Below, in pieces: positions 11,986-63,951 of a stretch of 64,000 nucleotides of DNA. The translations under genes and the position numbers were made by a program. Positions within the stretch are counted from its first letter, which is position 1. Each line of letters opens with the position of its first letter. The DNA comes from Acidimicrobiales bacterium (lineage in GTDB: Bacteria; Actinomycetota; Acidimicrobiia; Acidimicrobiales; JAVJTC01), in NCBI GenBank assembly GCA_040219085.1, contig JAVJTC010000009.1, positions 1-64,000 of the forward strand. The letters run 5' to 3'. Below the pieces are notes generated by a model. That model searched no databases, was not told the DNA's origin, and worked only from the letters and a program-made list of their open reading frames with translations.

Positions 11986-12144
11986 GCCCCCTGCCGGTCA
12001 GTCCTGACGACGCGTGTCGCTCACCCGTCGTCGCACCCATCCACGATCTGACCCTACCGGGGGCGCTCCGACCGAGGCGGATGCGAGGCCCGACCAGCCT
12101 GACCCGGCCTCACTGCCGTGCCGCAACAGTGTCGTCAGCCGGTC
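11986..12144. other. Intergenic region between the crotonase and the first ridA relic
   Basis: Includes the upstream region of the crotonase gene. No gene is supported. Together with the relic at 12145-12262 and a further 229 bases up to 12491 (also without a supported gene), this forms a 506-bp non-coding stretch. Confidence 0.45.
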
Positions 12145-12262
12145 TCAGGGCCCTTTTGGTGCGTCGACCACCGCCGTGCATCGGATCTCCACGAGGATCC
12201 CGGGCACGGCAAGCGAGGTGACGCCCACGGCCGTTCACGCCGGATAGGGCTCCGAGGTGACG
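12145..12262 (-). pseudogene. RidA (YjgF/L-PSP) C-terminal relic, copy 1
   Basis: Read leftward, the segment encodes SEPYPA, an in-frame TGA (12235-12237) where copy 2 has TGG (Trp), then TAVGVTSLAVPGILVEIRC and a stop at 12145-12147. The pattern A-V-P-G-x-LVEI is the C-terminal signature of the RidA family of enamine/imine deaminases. Only about 37 codons remain of a protein that should have about 130, and it is interrupted, so it is dead. It is in the same orientation as copy 2 (15134-15256) and the two copies bracket the helicase/CBS-HEPN pair. Confidence 0.8.
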
Positions 12263-12491
12263 GCGGTGCTCTCCACCGAAGCGGCTCCGCCCCCGGAGTG
12301 GGTCGACATCTGCCGACACGTCGATGTTGTTCTGACATGGCCGCCCACATGGCACCGTCTCGACGAACTACTCCGACCGTGAACCCACAGACCTCCGCCG
12401 CGGTCGACGCTACGTGGTCCGCCGCTGCCTGCCGGACGGCTAGCACCTGCGCGTGGGTGAACGTCTGGACAGTGCCGACCCTGGTCGGGTG

Positions 12492-13802
12492 CTATGGATC
12501 GGCCGGAATGTCGCTGGTTTCGACACGTCGGCCGGCAATGGACTTCCAGAGATCGCGGCTCACAGGATCGCGAATCACCCAGGACGATCTCAGCCTGCCC
12601 GATTCAGCTGTCGATTCGCGCCGTCGCGTGTTCCGCACGGAGAAGGCCGCCTCAGATGCCGGGGGATCGTAGTGGACGATCTCGGCAATCGAAGGGAACT
12701 CGATGCCCTGCACCCCGGCATCGGTGGCGACAACGATCGTCCCCGAGGCGGCGGTCCGAGAAGGATCGTCGACGTTGTGACTAGGCGTCGAGCCGGTCAG
12801 CACGATTGGCTCGACGTCGAAGCGGTCCCGGATCGCGGCAGCGAGATAGCCGGCTGTGCGAGCGAACCCGGAGAAGACGACGACCGGTCCCCCAGCCGCC
12901 TCTGTCCGGTCTGCGACCAGTGCCAACAGAGCCTCCATCTTAGCGTCGGATTCGAGGTCGCTGGCTAGGTCTGCGATCTCGTCCAGCTCGTGCGCGACTG
13001 CTGAGTCGGACAGCTCTCGTCGACCCGGCCGGTCATCCAGGCTCCCCTGGAATGCCTCTTCGGGTCTCTGCGAAGTGATCATCGGAAGGGAGCTCGCAGC
13101 GACGCGGCCGAGAAGTTGACCTGCGACGCGCTCCCACCCGTCAACGTGCGAAGTATCAGCTTCGAAGGCCGCGACACGGTCGGCGACTGCTTGTTCGTCG
13201 GGGCTGAACTCCACATCGACGAATTCGAGGCCGGGCCAGGCATCGACTTGATACTTGAGCATCGAAGGAGGTGGGTTCTTGGGCCAGGAGACGCCGGCGG
13301 TCGGGACTGTCATGGCGACAAGAACCCGGACCGAGTCCGCGACCCAGAGCCGTTCTAGGACTTCGCGTCGAAGACCTGGCCAGCTGAAGACGTCGTCGAA
13401 GACCACGAGGTCCCAGGCCACCTGCAAGAGCTCATCGAGCCTGCCGGGTCGCTTGATGAAGTCGACCGACGTCACGACGAGCGTCGAAGTCGACCAGGGG
13501 CTCTCGCCCGGCGGGACGTCGAGTTCCATCTCCCGGTACTCGGGCCCATCGACCACCGTCGAACGGAGTCCGAGGTCCTGCAGGACTGCCTGCCACTGCG
13601 CGCTGAGCGTCCGGTGAGCGATGACAACGACGACTCGACCGTCGGGGCTTTTGCGGAGAACCTCTGCGATAGCGGCTGCCCCAGCGCTGACCTTCCCCAC
13701 CCCCGGCGGGGCCGAGACAACGAGGCGGGTCTGTGAGGGAGCCAATATGACGCGCTCAACAAGGTCGACTCTGAGGCGCTCGCCGGGGTTCCGGTCAGCC
13801 AT
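12492..13802 (-). CDS. SF2 helicase-like protein with degenerate ATPase motifs
   Basis: The 436-residue protein has the layout of a superfamily-2 (SNF2/RapA-like) helicase: motif I SAPPGVGKV (30-38), motif Ia VVVVIAHRTLSAQW (57-70), motif II VVFDDVF (133-139), a motif III-like VLVAMTVP, then in the second RecA-like lobe VVVFSGFARTAGYLA (motif IV), VVATDAGVQGIEFPS (motif V) and FSVRNTRRRES (motif VI). Two key positions deviate: the Walker lysine is followed by Val instead of Thr/Ser, and DExH is DDVF. ATP hydrolysis may be weak or lost. Its start overlaps the CBS-HEPN stop by 8 bp, so the two are translationally coupled. Confidence 0.75.
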   Translation of the reverse strand: MADRNPGERLRVDLVERVILAPSQTRLVVSAPPGVGKVSAGAAAIAEVLRKSPDGRVVVVIAHRTLSAQWQAVLQDLGLRSTVVDGPEYREMELDVPPGESPWSTSTLVVTSVDFIKRPGRLDELLQVAWDLVVFDDVFSWPGLRREVLERLWVADSVRVLVAMTVPTAGVSWPKNPPPSMLKYQVDAWPGLEFVDVEFSPDEQAVADRVAAFEADTSHVDGWERVAGQLLGRVAASSLPMITSQRPEEAFQGSLDDRPGRRELSDSAVAHELDEIADLASDLESDAKMEALLALVADRTEAAGGPVVVFSGFARTAGYLAAAIRDRFDVEPIVLTGSTPSHNVDDPSRTAASGTIVVATDAGVQGIEFPSIAEIVHYDPPASEAAFSVRNTRRRESTAESGRLRSSWVIRDPVSRDLWKSIAGRRVETSDIPADP

Positions 13803-14589
13803 CGTCGACCTCCCTCATTCGAGCGAGCCGCTGAACGACCCATTCCCGGTCAGCTGCGAGGCGCTCGACGTCGCGAGGCTCCGCCTCGCCTCGAAAGTGG
13901 AAGACGTCGTTACGGATGTCGCGGATGGCTTGAAGGCGACCGTCGACGACGGTCTTCATCCGGCCGAGCAGTCCCTCGAAGTGGGGCCATCCCACGCGGC
14001 TGCAGATGATCTGCCGGAGTTCGTCGAAACTCAACTCCTCAACTGTCGCCGGCAGCCGTCCATCGGCGTACCGGCGTCCGAGATTCGCCTCAATGCAAGC
14101 TGACAGCTCGTCGTCATCCATCGATCCCACGACCAGTTGGCGTAGCCCTTGTTCGATCTCTCCGAGGAGGATGAACGGGCGGGCCTGTGCGTAGTAGTAG
14201 TCGAGGACATCCCATGGCGTCACTATCGCCTGAGGGCCACGAGGTGACACGACGAGCACCGCTTCGGTCCGGTCGAGCATCTCGAGAACCGGCTCAAGGG
14301 GATCTCGGACAGTGACCTTGGGTATCTGGGTGAGGACGTCGTCGACGACGAGATCTTCGATCTTGAGACCTGGCTGGGACTCGAGGAGACGGGCTAGTGA
14401 CCATAGCGAGAAGACCCCCTGCAGTCGGCCGTTGACATCCTCGACCGTGAGCTGTGAAAACCGCTTCTCCAACATCAGGCGTAACGCGTCGACCACGGGG
14501 GTTTCGGCGTCCACACCCACGGGCGGCACAACTTCGTCAGCCGGGAACAGCTTCCCGACTGTGTGGAACGGGTTCGGTGAACTCTCCAC
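13795..14589 (-). CDS. CBS-HEPN protein (tandem CBS domains plus putative HEPN ribonuclease)
   Basis: A 264-residue protein. Residues about 18-70 and 80-132 form a CBS pair (DALRLMLEKRFSQLTVED; VLDRTEA-like second repeat, PWDVLDYY), a fold that binds adenine nucleotides. Residues about 136-260 are all-helical and contain IRNDVFHFRG, in which R226-x4-H231 is the RNA-cleavage motif of HEPN domains (Swt1-like arrangement). I chose GTG 14589 because AGAGGAGAA lies about 9 bases upstream; the longer reading to 14916 is arginine-rich nonsense. The first gene of a coupled pair with the helicase-like protein. The likely model is nucleotide-controlled RNA cleavage, for defence or stress; this is inference. 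Confidence 0.75.
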   Translation of the reverse strand: MESSPNPFHTVGKLFPADEVVPPVGVDAETPVVDALRLMLEKRFSQLTVEDVNGRLQGVFSLWSLARLLESQPGLKIEDLVVDDVLTQIPKVTVRDPLEPVLEMLDRTEAVLVVSPRGPQAIVTPWDVLDYYYAQARPFILLGEIEQGLRQLVVGSMDDDELSACIEANLGRRYADGRLPATVEELSFDELRQIICSRVGWPHFEGLLGRMKTVVDGRLQAIRDIRNDVFHFRGEAEPRDVERLAADREWVVQRLARMREVDDG

Positions 14590-15133
14590 CGTCGGGGTTC
14601 TCCTCTGGCCTCGGCTACCCGACGCCGATCCTACGCTCCGATGCCGACGAAGGCAGTAGCTGGGTTCAGCAGTGGGCCCCGGCTCTCGCGAGCCAACGCT
14701 CAGGAGTCGCATCGTCGGCCAGTCCGAGGACTCATTCACTACCAACCAGGGCGTCACACTAGGAGATCCCCTTCTCGAGGTCTCCTTATGAGCACGGAGC
14801 TCCCGCGCTTCCCGCCGGTCGGAGTTGCCAGCGCAGCGGGCGCCCCGCCCCGCACTAGAATGGCGATATGTCTCTAGAGTGGTTCTACTATTCTCTGGAG
14901 GCGGTTTCCGCCGCATGGGTTTCCCGAAACCGGCGCGTTCCTATATCGAGGAAATGCGTTCCGCGCCACATCGCGCACGAGGCCGTGACCAGCATGAACG
15001 CGGTTTCCTACCGGCCCGACGTGGGCGGGGACGGGCGAATCGGTGGCGCGAAACCCCGGCGGACGAAGTCTAGGGGTGTGGCCGGGGAGGCCTGGGAGCG
15101 AGGCGGATGTGCGAGCAGTGCGATCTGCAGGTC
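14590..15133. other. Intergenic region upstream of the CBS-HEPN gene
   Basis: About 540 bases. It should hold the leftward promoter of the CBS-HEPN operon. I see short inverted repeats (AGGAGA...TCTCCT at about 14761-14788 and GGCGG-TTT-CCGCC near 14902) but no convincing gene; rightward reading frames here lack a ribosome-binding site and any recognisable motif. Confidence 0.4.
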
Positions 15134-15256
15134 TCACGGCGCTCCGGACGGGTCGATCACCGCGATGCAGCGGATTTCCACGAGGATTCCGGGGACGGCG
15201 AGAGCGGTGACGCCCACCGCCGTCCACGCCGGGTATGGCTCCGATGTGAAGACGGG
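15134..15256 (-). pseudogene. RidA (YjgF/L-PSP) C-terminal relic, copy 2
   Basis: Leftward translation gives PVFTSEPYPAWTAVGVTALA, then VPGILVEIRCIAV and a stop at 15134-15136. This is the conserved C-terminus of RidA-family deaminases (PAxTxVxV...PGxLVEIxxIAV). There are only 40 codons; upstream the similarity to RidA ends, so the first two thirds are missing. It is highly similar to copy 1 (12145-12262) but keeps the Trp codon. The two copies are direct repeats flanking the CBS-HEPN/helicase pair. Confidence 0.8.
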
Positions 15257-32329: not shown

Positions 32330-34093
32330 GTGCCCCTCTCCGCAACAGAACTTGACCGGGTCCTGGATCGCATTGCCGAAGGTGCTGTTCCCGCCACACT
32401 CGAGTCGAAGGAGCTCGACTTCAAGCGCCAGCCGGACAGCCGAGGCGATGCCATCAAGACGCTGGCGGACGCCGCGGCGTGCTTCGCGAACGCCGACGGT
32501 GGGACGGTCGTCATGGGGATCGCGAACTCCACGGCCGGTGTCGAGGCCTTCCGCGGGTGCGACTTGGACCCGCAGGTGTGCCAAAGAAGGATCTACGAGC
32601 TGACCGACCCGCCCCTGATGGTTGGTGCCAGGACGGTCCAGCGATCCGACGTCACGTTGCTGGTAGTCGATGTGCTGCGCAGCTTCGAGATCCACGCCGA
32701 CAAGCAGGGCCGGTCCAGTCATCGGGTTGGTACCGACTGTCTCCCACTCTCGCCCCAGGAACATCGTCGGCTTCGTGAAGAACGTCTCGGGGTCGACTGG
32801 TCTGCACAGCCGTCCGAACTCCGAGTCGCCGACATCGCGCCTCGTGCACTCGAGTCGGCTCGGGAGGCGCTGCAGCGCTTCCCAGACGATCGGCGGCCGC
32901 TGGCGGCGCTCTCCGACGACGACCTCCTGAGCGCGCTCGGCGTGGTCGACTCGGATGGCCACCTCCTCCGGGCTGGTGAGGTCTTGTTCTGCGAACCGCC
33001 GGCCGACGAGTCGGTTGTCGTGTACCAGCACCGTCCGACACCTGGTGGCGAAACAGCACTGGTCGAGCGGATCAGTCTCCCCACGGTGCTCGCCTTCGAA
33101 CGCACGATGGAGCTGGTGTGGGCGCGTCGCAACGTGACGCCGCTCAACCTCCCAGCCGGTCAGCAGCTCGAGATCAGCGACTTCCCCGAGGCCGCGGTCA
33201 GGGAGGCGCTGTCGAACGCCCTCTTGCATCGCGACTACCGATTGCCGGGCCCGGTCAACATCGAGCACTCGCCCACGTCATTCGTGGTCATCTCGCCGGG
33301 ACCGCTCGTTGGCAGCGTGACGCCTGAGAACATCCTCACCCACGCATCGACGCCCCGGAATCCGGCGTTGGCGAAGGCCTCGCGACTGCTTCGGCTTGCG
33401 GAAGAGACGGGTCGGGGCGTCGACCGAATGGTTCGGGAGATGATTCGGATCGGGCACGACCCGCCAGTGATCGAAGAGGGGATCGACTTCGTACGAGTGG
33501 CGCTCTCCGGTGGCGCACCGCGAAGTTCCATCGTCAGGTACGTCGCGGACCTCGGCCCTGAGGAGCGCGACGACACCGACGCGATGCTGATCCTCTTCAC
33601 CCTCTGCCAACAGAGAACGATCACGGCTGAGCAGATCGCGCCGGTGCTGCAGAAGGCTGAGCCGGAAGCCGAGAACATCCTTCGGCGGCTGTCCCAAGAG
33701 CGCTCAGGGATGATCGAGCCAACTCGTGAATCGGGCTCGCGCCGCAAGGGCCAGTACCGCCTCCGGGCGGATGCGCTGAAGGCGCTTGGCACCGCTGTTC
33801 GCTACCACCGGCGGACGGTCGACGAGATCGACCGCAAGGTGATTGCCCATCTGCACGAATACGGGAAGATCACCAACCGGACTCTGCAGAACCTGTTCGA
33901 CATCGACGTCTATCGGGCTCGGGACATCCTTGCCGACCTCCAACAGCGTGAGATGATCGTCCGGGTGTCGGAGGCGAAGCGAGGGCCCAGCGTCGAGTAC
34001 GGGCCAGGGCCGAAGCTTCCCCGAAGACGCAGGAGCCGGTCGGGCACCGACAGCTCCAAGCCGGCCAGTCCCGACGACGAGCGGCTCTTCTAG
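32330..34093 (+). CDS. AlbA_2 (Schlafen-type) DNA/RNA-binding ATPase-like protein
   Basis: The 587-residue protein starts with an AlbA_2 domain (ESKELDFKRQ about 25-34, ADAAACFANADGGTVVMGI about 46-64), then a HATPase_c_4-like region (DFPEAAVREALSNALLHRDY about 285-304, EETGRGVDRMVREMI about 360-374) and one or two C-terminal winged helices (HEYGKITNRTLQNLFDIDVYRARD). This set is typical of standalone regulators and of some anti-phage proteins. GTG 32330 is the only start in frame after an upstream TGA at 32273. The preceding palindromic array probably serves autoregulation. Codon use looks less GC-biased than neighbouring genes. Confidence 0.8.
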   Translation: MPLSATELDRVLDRIAEGAVPATLESKELDFKRQPDSRGDAIKTLADAAACFANADGGTVVMGIANSTAGVEAFRGCDLDPQVCQRRIYELTDPPLMVGARTVQRSDVTLLVVDVLRSFEIHADKQGRSSHRVGTDCLPLSPQEHRRLREERLGVDWSAQPSELRVADIAPRALESAREALQRFPDDRRPLAALSDDDLLSALGVVDSDGHLLRAGEVLFCEPPADESVVVYQHRPTPGGETALVERISLPTVLAFERTMELVWARRNVTPLNLPAGQQLEISDFPEAAVREALSNALLHRDYRLPGPVNIEHSPTSFVVISPGPLVGSVTPENILTHASTPRNPALAKASRLLRLAEETGRGVDRMVREMIRIGHDPPVIEEGIDFVRVALSGGAPRSSIVRYVADLGPEERDDTDAMLILFTLCQQRTITAEQIAPVLQKAEPEAENILRRLSQERSGMIEPTRESGSRRKGQYRLRADALKALGTAVRYHRRTVDEIDRKVIAHLHEYGKITNRTLQNLFDIDVYRARDILADLQQREMIVRVSEAKRGPSVEYGPGPKLPRRRRSRSGTDSSKPASPDDERLF

Positions 34094-63290: not shown

Positions 63291-63590
63291 GTGACCTCTA
63301 CGGGCCTCGACGTCGACCTCGACCTGGTCGCAGGGATCTGCCAGCGCTTCGGTTTGGCGCGTTTGGAGGTCTTCGGATCAGTCAGTCGAGGGGAGGATCG
63401 CCCGGGCAGCGACATCGACCTGCTCTATGACCTGGCTCCTGGCGCTCGACTCGGTTGGGATATCGAGACTCTCGCTGACGAGCTGACTGAGGCTCTTGGG
63501 CGGCCGGTCGACCTGGTATCTCGCAAGGCATTGCATGAACGGCTGCGTGACGCGGTGCTGGCCGAGGCCCAGACCCTGTATGCGGCGTGA
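63291..63590 (+). CDS. mntA: MntA-like nucleotidyltransferase antitoxin
   Basis: A 99-residue minimal nucleotidyltransferase. The active-site motif GS-x10-DxD is intact: G29-S30 in EVFGSVSRGE and D41-I-D43 in GSDIDLLYD. In the studied MntA-HepT systems this enzyme AMPylates the toxin and so inactivates it. GTG start at 63291. It overlaps hepT by 11 bp, which couples antitoxin and toxin synthesis. Confidence 0.88.
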   Translation: MTSTGLDVDLDLVAGICQRFGLARLEVFGSVSRGEDRPGSDIDLLYDLAPGARLGWDIETLADELTEALGRPVDLVSRKALHERLRDAVLAEAQTLYAA

Positions 63591-63951
63591 GCTCCTCCTT
63601 CTCGGCGAGATGATCGAGGCGGCCGAACAGGCGCAGGCCCTCGTCTCGGGCTTCGACCTCGAAGAGTTCAGCTCGGATCGCCAACGACGAGATGCGCTGC
63701 TCTGGAACTTCACCGTCCTGGGTGAGGCGGCGGCGCAGCTCGACCAGTCGGTGAAAGAACGATTCCCTGAGATCCCGTGGACACGGCCCGCCCGACTCCG
63801 CAACAGGATCATCCACGGCTATTGGTCGATCGACCTCGAGATTCTTCACACAACCGCCACCGACGTGCTCCCGGAGCTCGTCGATCAGCTGCGGACCGCG
63901 CTTGGCGTCCTCGAGGCCGATCCGGATCCCGACGACGCAGCTGCCCCATAG
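63580..63951 (+). CDS. hepT: HepT-like HEPN ribonuclease toxin
   Basis: A 123-residue helical HEPN protein (DUF86 type). The catalytic/AMPylation motif R-x4-H-x-Y is intact as RNRIIHGY (R74, H79, Y81). HepT cleaves RNA or tRNA ends when not modified by MntA on the motif tyrosine. I chose ATG 63580 (MRRELLLLGEM) because longer readings duplicate the mntA frame region and lack helix 1. The last 49 bases of the window after it hold no recognisable gene. Confidence 0.9.
   Translation: MRRELLLLGEMIEAAEQAQALVSGFDLEEFSSDRQRRDALLWNFTVLGEAAAQLDQSVKERFPEIPWTRPARLRNRIIHGYWSIDLEILHTTATDVLPELVDQLRTALGVLEADPDPDDAAAP

Follow-up and report, generated by a model that had tools for sequence, protein, structure and literature searches.

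On the minus strand of the 64,000-nucleotide stretch of Acidimicrobiales DNA analysed here, which we call the window, two overlapping genes encode a protein with a CBS pair and a HEPN domain (gene 1) and a SNF2/RapA-like protein with degenerate helicase motifs (gene 2). The features of the locus are the following.

13795..14589, minus strand: gene 1, a CBS pair (about residues 22-130) with a C-terminal HEPN domain (about residues 136-263), from the open reading frame and its translation, Pfam CBS and an AlphaFold2 model
14458..14460, minus strand: F44 of gene 1, the equivalent of Y157 in the published defence protein DS-11, from the alignment column
14140..14154, minus strand: second HEPN motif, E146-x3-R150 (codons 146-150), from conservation
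13894..13914, minus strand: HEPN catalytic-type motif, R226-N-D-V-F-H231-F (codons 226-232), from conservation and the model
13795..13802, minus strand: overlap of gene 1 and gene 2, exactly 8 bp, from the sequence
12492..13802, minus strand: gene 2, a SNF2/RapA-like protein with altered motifs I, II, III, V and VI, from Pfam, matches to RapA and DpdE/HmaA/DrmD, and a motif table
12127-12266 and 15116-15255, read on the minus strand: a 140-bp direct repeat (79% identity) flanking the pair

Gene 1 encodes 264 amino acids from a GTG at 14589 to a TGA at 13795, with AGGAG at 14600-14604, 10 nt 5' of the start codon. A longer version of 373 amino acids, starting from an ATG at 14916 in the same frame, was discarded in view of codon-position GC content, which is coding-like from 14589 onwards (0.74/0.38/0.73) versus 0.60/0.68/0.63 in the extension between 14916 and 14589; we place the start at the GTG because the coding-like pattern begins only there. 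Gene 2 encodes 436 amino acids from an ATG at 13802 to a TGA at 12492, its frame is intact over all 436 codons, and its codon-position GC (0.71/0.49/0.74) is also coding-like. The SD sequence of gene 2, AGGGAGG at 13809-13815, lies inside gene 1, 6 nt 5' of the ATG. The open reading frames confirm that two minus-strand genes share 8 bp, as an earlier note on this DNA had claimed, and the overlap with its internal SD sequence argues for coupled expression of the two genes, the translation of gene 2 being probably coupled to that of gene 1.

The pair sits between an enoyl-CoA hydratase-like gene (named by eye) and a PanE/ApbA-like gene, in a region of metabolic genes, and scans of the window proteins recognised no other defence gene near it. 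Both copies of the flanking repeat read as a RidA-like C-terminal end (PAWTAVGVTALAVPGILVEI; the RidA name was again given by eye), one of them with an internal stop. These remnants suggest a site of insertion or rearrangement, and the flanking repeat together with the lack of relatives in the order points to horizontal acquisition of the pair. Elsewhere in the window, positions 32330-34093 encode a protein with Schlafen AlbA_2 and RecG-C-terminal-like HATPase_c_4 domains, a kind of protein frequently associated with defence or regulation. At positions 63291-63951 a short ORF looks like a minimal nucleotidyltransferase (GSVSRGEDRPGSDIDLL); another small ORF comes after it, and the two are possibly an MNT-HEPN pair.

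The CBS pair and HEPN domain of gene 1

Pfam CBS matches gene 1 at 5.6e-11, the T-x-x-D signature of the second CBS is conserved, and we regard the identity of the C-terminal domain as HEPN as established. The earlier note had read it in this way from R226-x4-H231 in IRNDVFHFRG, and the reading holds. In an alignment of 48 sequences, composed of the window protein and 47 relatives from a scan of genome_contigs with the bacterial subfamily, R226, N227, H231, F232, E146 and R150 are invariant (48/48). The RNxxxHF residues are also kept in haloarchaeal and enterobacterial relatives, and because R, N, H and F remain invariant across all of these sequences, R226-x4-H231 is no chance motif. The passages on HEPN signatures in the 2013 account by Anantharaman give Rx4-6H with a polar residue after the arginine, plus Ex3[KR], and place the motif at the end of a helix that is followed by a further helix (PMC3710099). 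Gene 1 carries both signatures, as R226-N-D-V-F-H231 and E146-x3-R150. In its AlphaFold2 model (mean pLDDT 90.4, pTM 0.79) the C-terminal helices span residues 125-156, 159-170, 188-195, 212-233 and 238-263, and residues 226-231 stand at the end of helix 3 (212-233), ahead of helix 238-263.

As further checks the earlier note had named an HMM search against HEPN families and structure prediction for both proteins. No HEPN profile, those of Pfam included, is matched significantly by gene 1, whereas HEPN_Swt1 matches the C-terminal domains of 22 of the 53 relatives scanned singly (best 4.3e-5), and those of a few relatives weakly match HEPN_RiboL-PSP, HEPN_Cthe2314, HEPN_STY4199 or DUF4145. The structure prediction is confident for gene 1 but poor for gene 2 (pLDDT 51). 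Against PDB profiles gene 1 shows a weak match to Csm6 (E 0.46), and among the matches listed by Foldseek for the whole gene 1 model against the PDB, all are to the CBS part. The two invariant motifs, their position on helix 3 in the case of R226-x4-H231, and the HEPN_Swt1 matches of the relatives carry the assignment, and gene 1 is predicted to have RNase activity.

Proteins of this architecture have been described. CBS-HEPN fusions were noted in 2013, and ligand-regulated RNA stability was proposed for them in the passages that treat these fusions (PMC3710099). DS-11 (DefensePredictor, Science 2026) is a CBS-HEPN phage-defence system of a single protein that protects E. coli from phages (PMC13092281). 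Its defence is abolished by Y157A in the CBS part, Y157 being an adenine contact in the first CBS, and likewise by mutation of the HEPN catalytic residues; the authors propose regulation of the nuclease by an adenine derivative that the CBS part binds, and they state that the ligand controlling DS-11 is unknown (PMC13092281). The suggestion of the earlier note that the module was undescribed is not supported in view of these two reports. Publications already back its core inference, namely that a ligand of the CBS pair gates the HEPN nuclease, and that inference is hence not new; by analogy with the CBS and HEPN mutants of DS-11 and with its phage protection, both ligand gating and an anti-phage role are likely for gene 1.

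An E. coli relative of gene 1 (365 aa, 26% identical) has its HEPN pair at R330/H335, and at position 157, within the first CBS, it has the Y of HDYSQLP; from this agreement in positions we infer that DS-11 belongs to the same protein family as the E. coli relative and gene 1. The corresponding residue of gene 1 is F44, in whose column the 48 sequences have F in 28 cases, Y in 17, L in 2 and C in 1, so that 45/48 carry an aromatic F or Y. F44 would occupy the aromatic adenine-contact position, but F is not Y and the ligand contact is putative. We consider gene 1 likely to be a HEPN RNase of the DS-11 kind, gated by a ligand.

Gene 2 as a degenerate SNF2-type helicase

The SF2 helicase layout of gene 2 is supported by Pfam Helicase_C (1.7e-7, over the cut-off) and by sequence matches to RapA (3.2e-7), to DpdE (7e-10) and to the DpdE/HmaA/DrmD set (1e-8 to 1e-10), with ResIII just under the cut-off (1.5e-4). 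Identity to the nearest SNF2 kin is 20-27%. The degeneracy that had been noticed before is confirmed against seven comparators: motif I reads GVGKV versus GxGKT and motif II reads DDVF versus DEAH (GKT and DEAH are present in 7/7 comparators), while motif V reads GVQGIE versus xxEGxN and motif VI reads VRNTRRR versus QRxGRxxR. The T of motif I, the E and H of motif II, the E of motif V and the Q of motif VI have been replaced; what remains is the lysine of motif I, the leading aspartate of motif II and two arginines in motif VI. The protein ends soon after motif VI, whereas its relatives run on for several hundred residues. Given these changes in motifs I, II, V and VI, ATP hydrolysis is unlikely and gene 2 is probably ATPase-dead. 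An intact frame with coding-like GC, despite such low identity to its kin, argues for selection on gene 2 as a non-catalytic protein rather than for decay.

Relatives and genomic neighbourhoods

A tblastn search in plasmids found CBS-domain relatives in haloarchaea, E. coli, Rhizobium and Methylobacterium, with 82-98% of the gene 1 length aligned. Neither genome_contigs nor viral_contigs yielded a relative in pattern scans that used the CBS-HEPN protein of the window, and a scan of genome_contigs with the bacterial subfamily gave 222 related stretches from many phyla; within the order, class and phylum of the window genome, CBS-HEPN relatives occur only in scattered genomes. The E. coli protein and most bacterial relatives carry an N-terminal extension of about 110 aa that is absent in gene 1. 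In a maximum-likelihood tree of 88 sequences, gene 1 falls together with six short proteins from haloarchaea (support 99/99), a placement that we treat as tentative because the branch is very long, and gene 1 is a divergent relative of the DS-11-type proteins. A DS-11-type CBS-HEPN gene is also present on 8 predicted viral or prophage contigs (L129-L136 in viral_contigs).

Two distant relatives of gene 1 from the same class or phylum have further N-terminal modules. Mrr_N is fused to CBS-HEPN in genome G608 (L123, 1474-2847) and occurs as a separate frame in genome G317, and RAMA is fused to CBS-HEPN in genome G344 (L024, 10141-12423); neither module is present in the window gene 1. Both modules are known from restriction systems, and the fusions point to a possible link between CBS-HEPN nucleases and the recognition of DNA.

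The earlier note had made its reading depend on conserved pairing of the two genes in other genomes, and for this exact pair no such conservation was seen: among the genomes surveyed, 397 from the order, 395 from the class and 397 from the phylum, neither an ortholog of gene 2 nor another copy of the pair turned up, and a pattern scan found no gene 2 relatives in viral contigs or plasmids. All-against-all comparison in 92 CBS-HEPN loci revealed no conserved neighbour, most relatives having no recurrent partner and several having only housekeeping neighbours. A RapA/SNF2-type helicase lies within 10 kb of the CBS-HEPN gene in 5 of the 92 loci by raw count. In Haloferax larsenii the helicase is BrxHII-like and immediately upstream, and it has a cytosine methyltransferase as neighbour. 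The Roseovarius locus combines a DpdE/DrmD-like helicase with an HNH protein and a methylase resembling DrmMI. HKD-SNF2 lies nearby in three planctomycetes loci, and the two of these that were checked also contain a methylase (type ISP or IIG-type). The helicases of these five loci are full-length and belong to restriction- or DISARM-like sets, with adjoining methyltransferases in the loci checked. In G317, drmA lies a few kb upstream of CBS-HEPN. In nine other short-type loci of haloarchaeal plasmids, by annotation, no such helicase lies beside the gene; in one of them, that of Natronococcus, a PDDEXK nuclease takes its place. Pfam comparison of 146 nearest with 115 distant neighbours gave no more than a weak, indicative excess of R-M, HNH and TIR families among the top 25 families listed. 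A looser link of CBS-HEPN genes to defence islands containing SNF2 proteins and methylases appears to be visible in these neighbourhoods. Downstream of CBS-HEPN, over about 0.5 to 11 kb, two rhizobial loci (L020 from Rhizobium and L090 from a Rhizobiales contig) share a gene set consisting of a PIN-like protein, two ATP-binding proteins, a radical SAM protein, a DGQHR-domain protein, a ParB-like protein and a DEAD helicase, which is possibly a separate defence island.

Interpretation and comparison with known systems

The locus is real and probably functional, and the explanation that we favour, with a probability of about 0.5, is a small defence-type operon of a DS-11-like effector and a pseudo-helicase partner. 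The CBS pair of gene 1 would bind an adenine-containing nucleotide, and the bound nucleotide would control a HEPN RNase, dimeric and independent of metal, that cuts RNA upon infection of the cell. Gene 2 would keep the two-lobe SNF2/RapA scaffold with its ATPase residues lost, and would bind nucleic acid without catalysis and either trigger or restrain the RNase, standing in for modules (the DS-11-type extension, Mrr_N or RAMA) that are found at the N-terminus within the chain of other CBS-HEPN proteins and are missing from gene 1. A defence role is favoured because of the DS-11 precedent and because relatives occur in islands with DrmA, DrmD/DpdE, HKD-SNF2/ISP or PDDEXK and on the eight viral contigs. 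Whether gene 2 is a partner of gene 1 we judge to be evenly balanced: the evidence for it consists of the gene overlap, the integrity of gene 2 and the missing N-terminal modules, and against it stand the single occurrence of the pair in all genomes searched, the normal helicases, rather than pseudo-helicases, near the relatives, the lack of a recurrent partner in most relatives, and the action of DS-11 as one protein. Against the favoured explanation as a whole also count the missing significant HEPN profile match of gene 1 itself, the lack of another recognised defence gene close to the pair, and the poor model of gene 2. More tentatively, and with the odds somewhat against it, the pair may be a two-gene variant of the DS-11 kind whose SNF2-like second protein, dead as an ATPase and produced in step with the nuclease, takes over from the fused N-terminal module as the nucleic-acid sensor or restraint by which the nuclease is set off.

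It is rather unlikely, though the best of the alternatives, that gene 1 acts alone exactly like DS-11 and that gene 2, a helicase fragment either unrelated or in decay, lies downstream on the same transcript by chance. The one-protein nature of DS-11, the relatives without a constant partner, and the loss of motifs I, II, V and VI in a protein ending soon after motif VI would all agree with this, but free decay should leave stops or frameshifts, and gene 2 is intact and coding-like despite extreme divergence, with a good SD sequence and an overlap with gene 1. Considerably less probable is a module of the toxin-antitoxin type, with the HEPN protein as toxin and the pseudo-helicase as protein antitoxin or restraint; overlapping co-directional genes are typical of such modules, and HEPN RNases are the toxins in many of them according to the relevant passages of PMC3710099. 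The intramolecular CBS pair, however, is already a control, and DS-11 relatives persist without gene 2. We also know of no antitoxin that is SNF2-like. Least probable of all is a stress- or nucleotide-responsive regulator of RNA turnover unrelated to phage, in which the CBS pair senses AMP/ATP or a dinucleotide and the HEPN domain trims RNA: the 2013 proposal for CBS-HEPN fusions (in the passages of PMC3710099 noted above), the metabolic genes around the pair and the relatives with housekeeping neighbours would suit it, but DS-11 protects against phage, and a patchy distribution with mobile-element and R-M neighbours points to conflict.

If the favoured reading of an operon with a pseudo-helicase partner is right, gene 2 would be a dead SNF2 ATPase serving as the sensor subunit of an RNase. 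As a short divergent member from an actinobacterium-type genome and kin of haloarchaeal plasmid proteins, gene 1 narrows the conserved core to the CBS pair and HEPN domain, and it offers a small protein for work on the ligand and the RNA target. The links of the family to Mrr_N, RAMA, R-M and DISARM islands suggest a possible source of the CBS-HEPN trigger, and the coupled dead helicase makes the locus worth a bench test.

Gene 1 resembles DS-11 in having a CBS pair and a C-terminal HEPN domain in one chain, the invariant R, N and H of the HEPN motif, and an aromatic F44 at the position of Y157. It differs from the DS-11-type E. coli relative in having no extension before the CBS pair, and from the one-protein DS-11 in its overlapping pseudo-helicase gene. 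With the CBS-HEPN fusions of the Swt1/Abi2 HEPN group it shares the same two domains and an active-type Rx4-6H, whereas the examples in the corresponding passages of PMC3710099 include HD domains and are described there without a helicase partner. Gene 2 has the two RecA-like lobes and recognisable motifs of the RapA, DrmD, DpdE and BrxHII SNF2-type helicases, but at 436 aa it is about half as long as these proteins (about 900-1200 aa). Among the 40 window proteins compared with PADLOC, the only DISARM- or Dpd-type matches were weak helicase ones, including gene 2; membership in DISARM or BREX was rejected since the partner genes are absent. In contrast to these islands and to those of the Dpd type, none of the genes beside the pair was recognised as a methyltransferase, DrmA/B, Pgl or Dpd gene. 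The likeness to these islands lies in the CBS-HEPN relatives, some of which are found in or next to them, and the pair is a variant with a coupled dead helicase rather than a new class.
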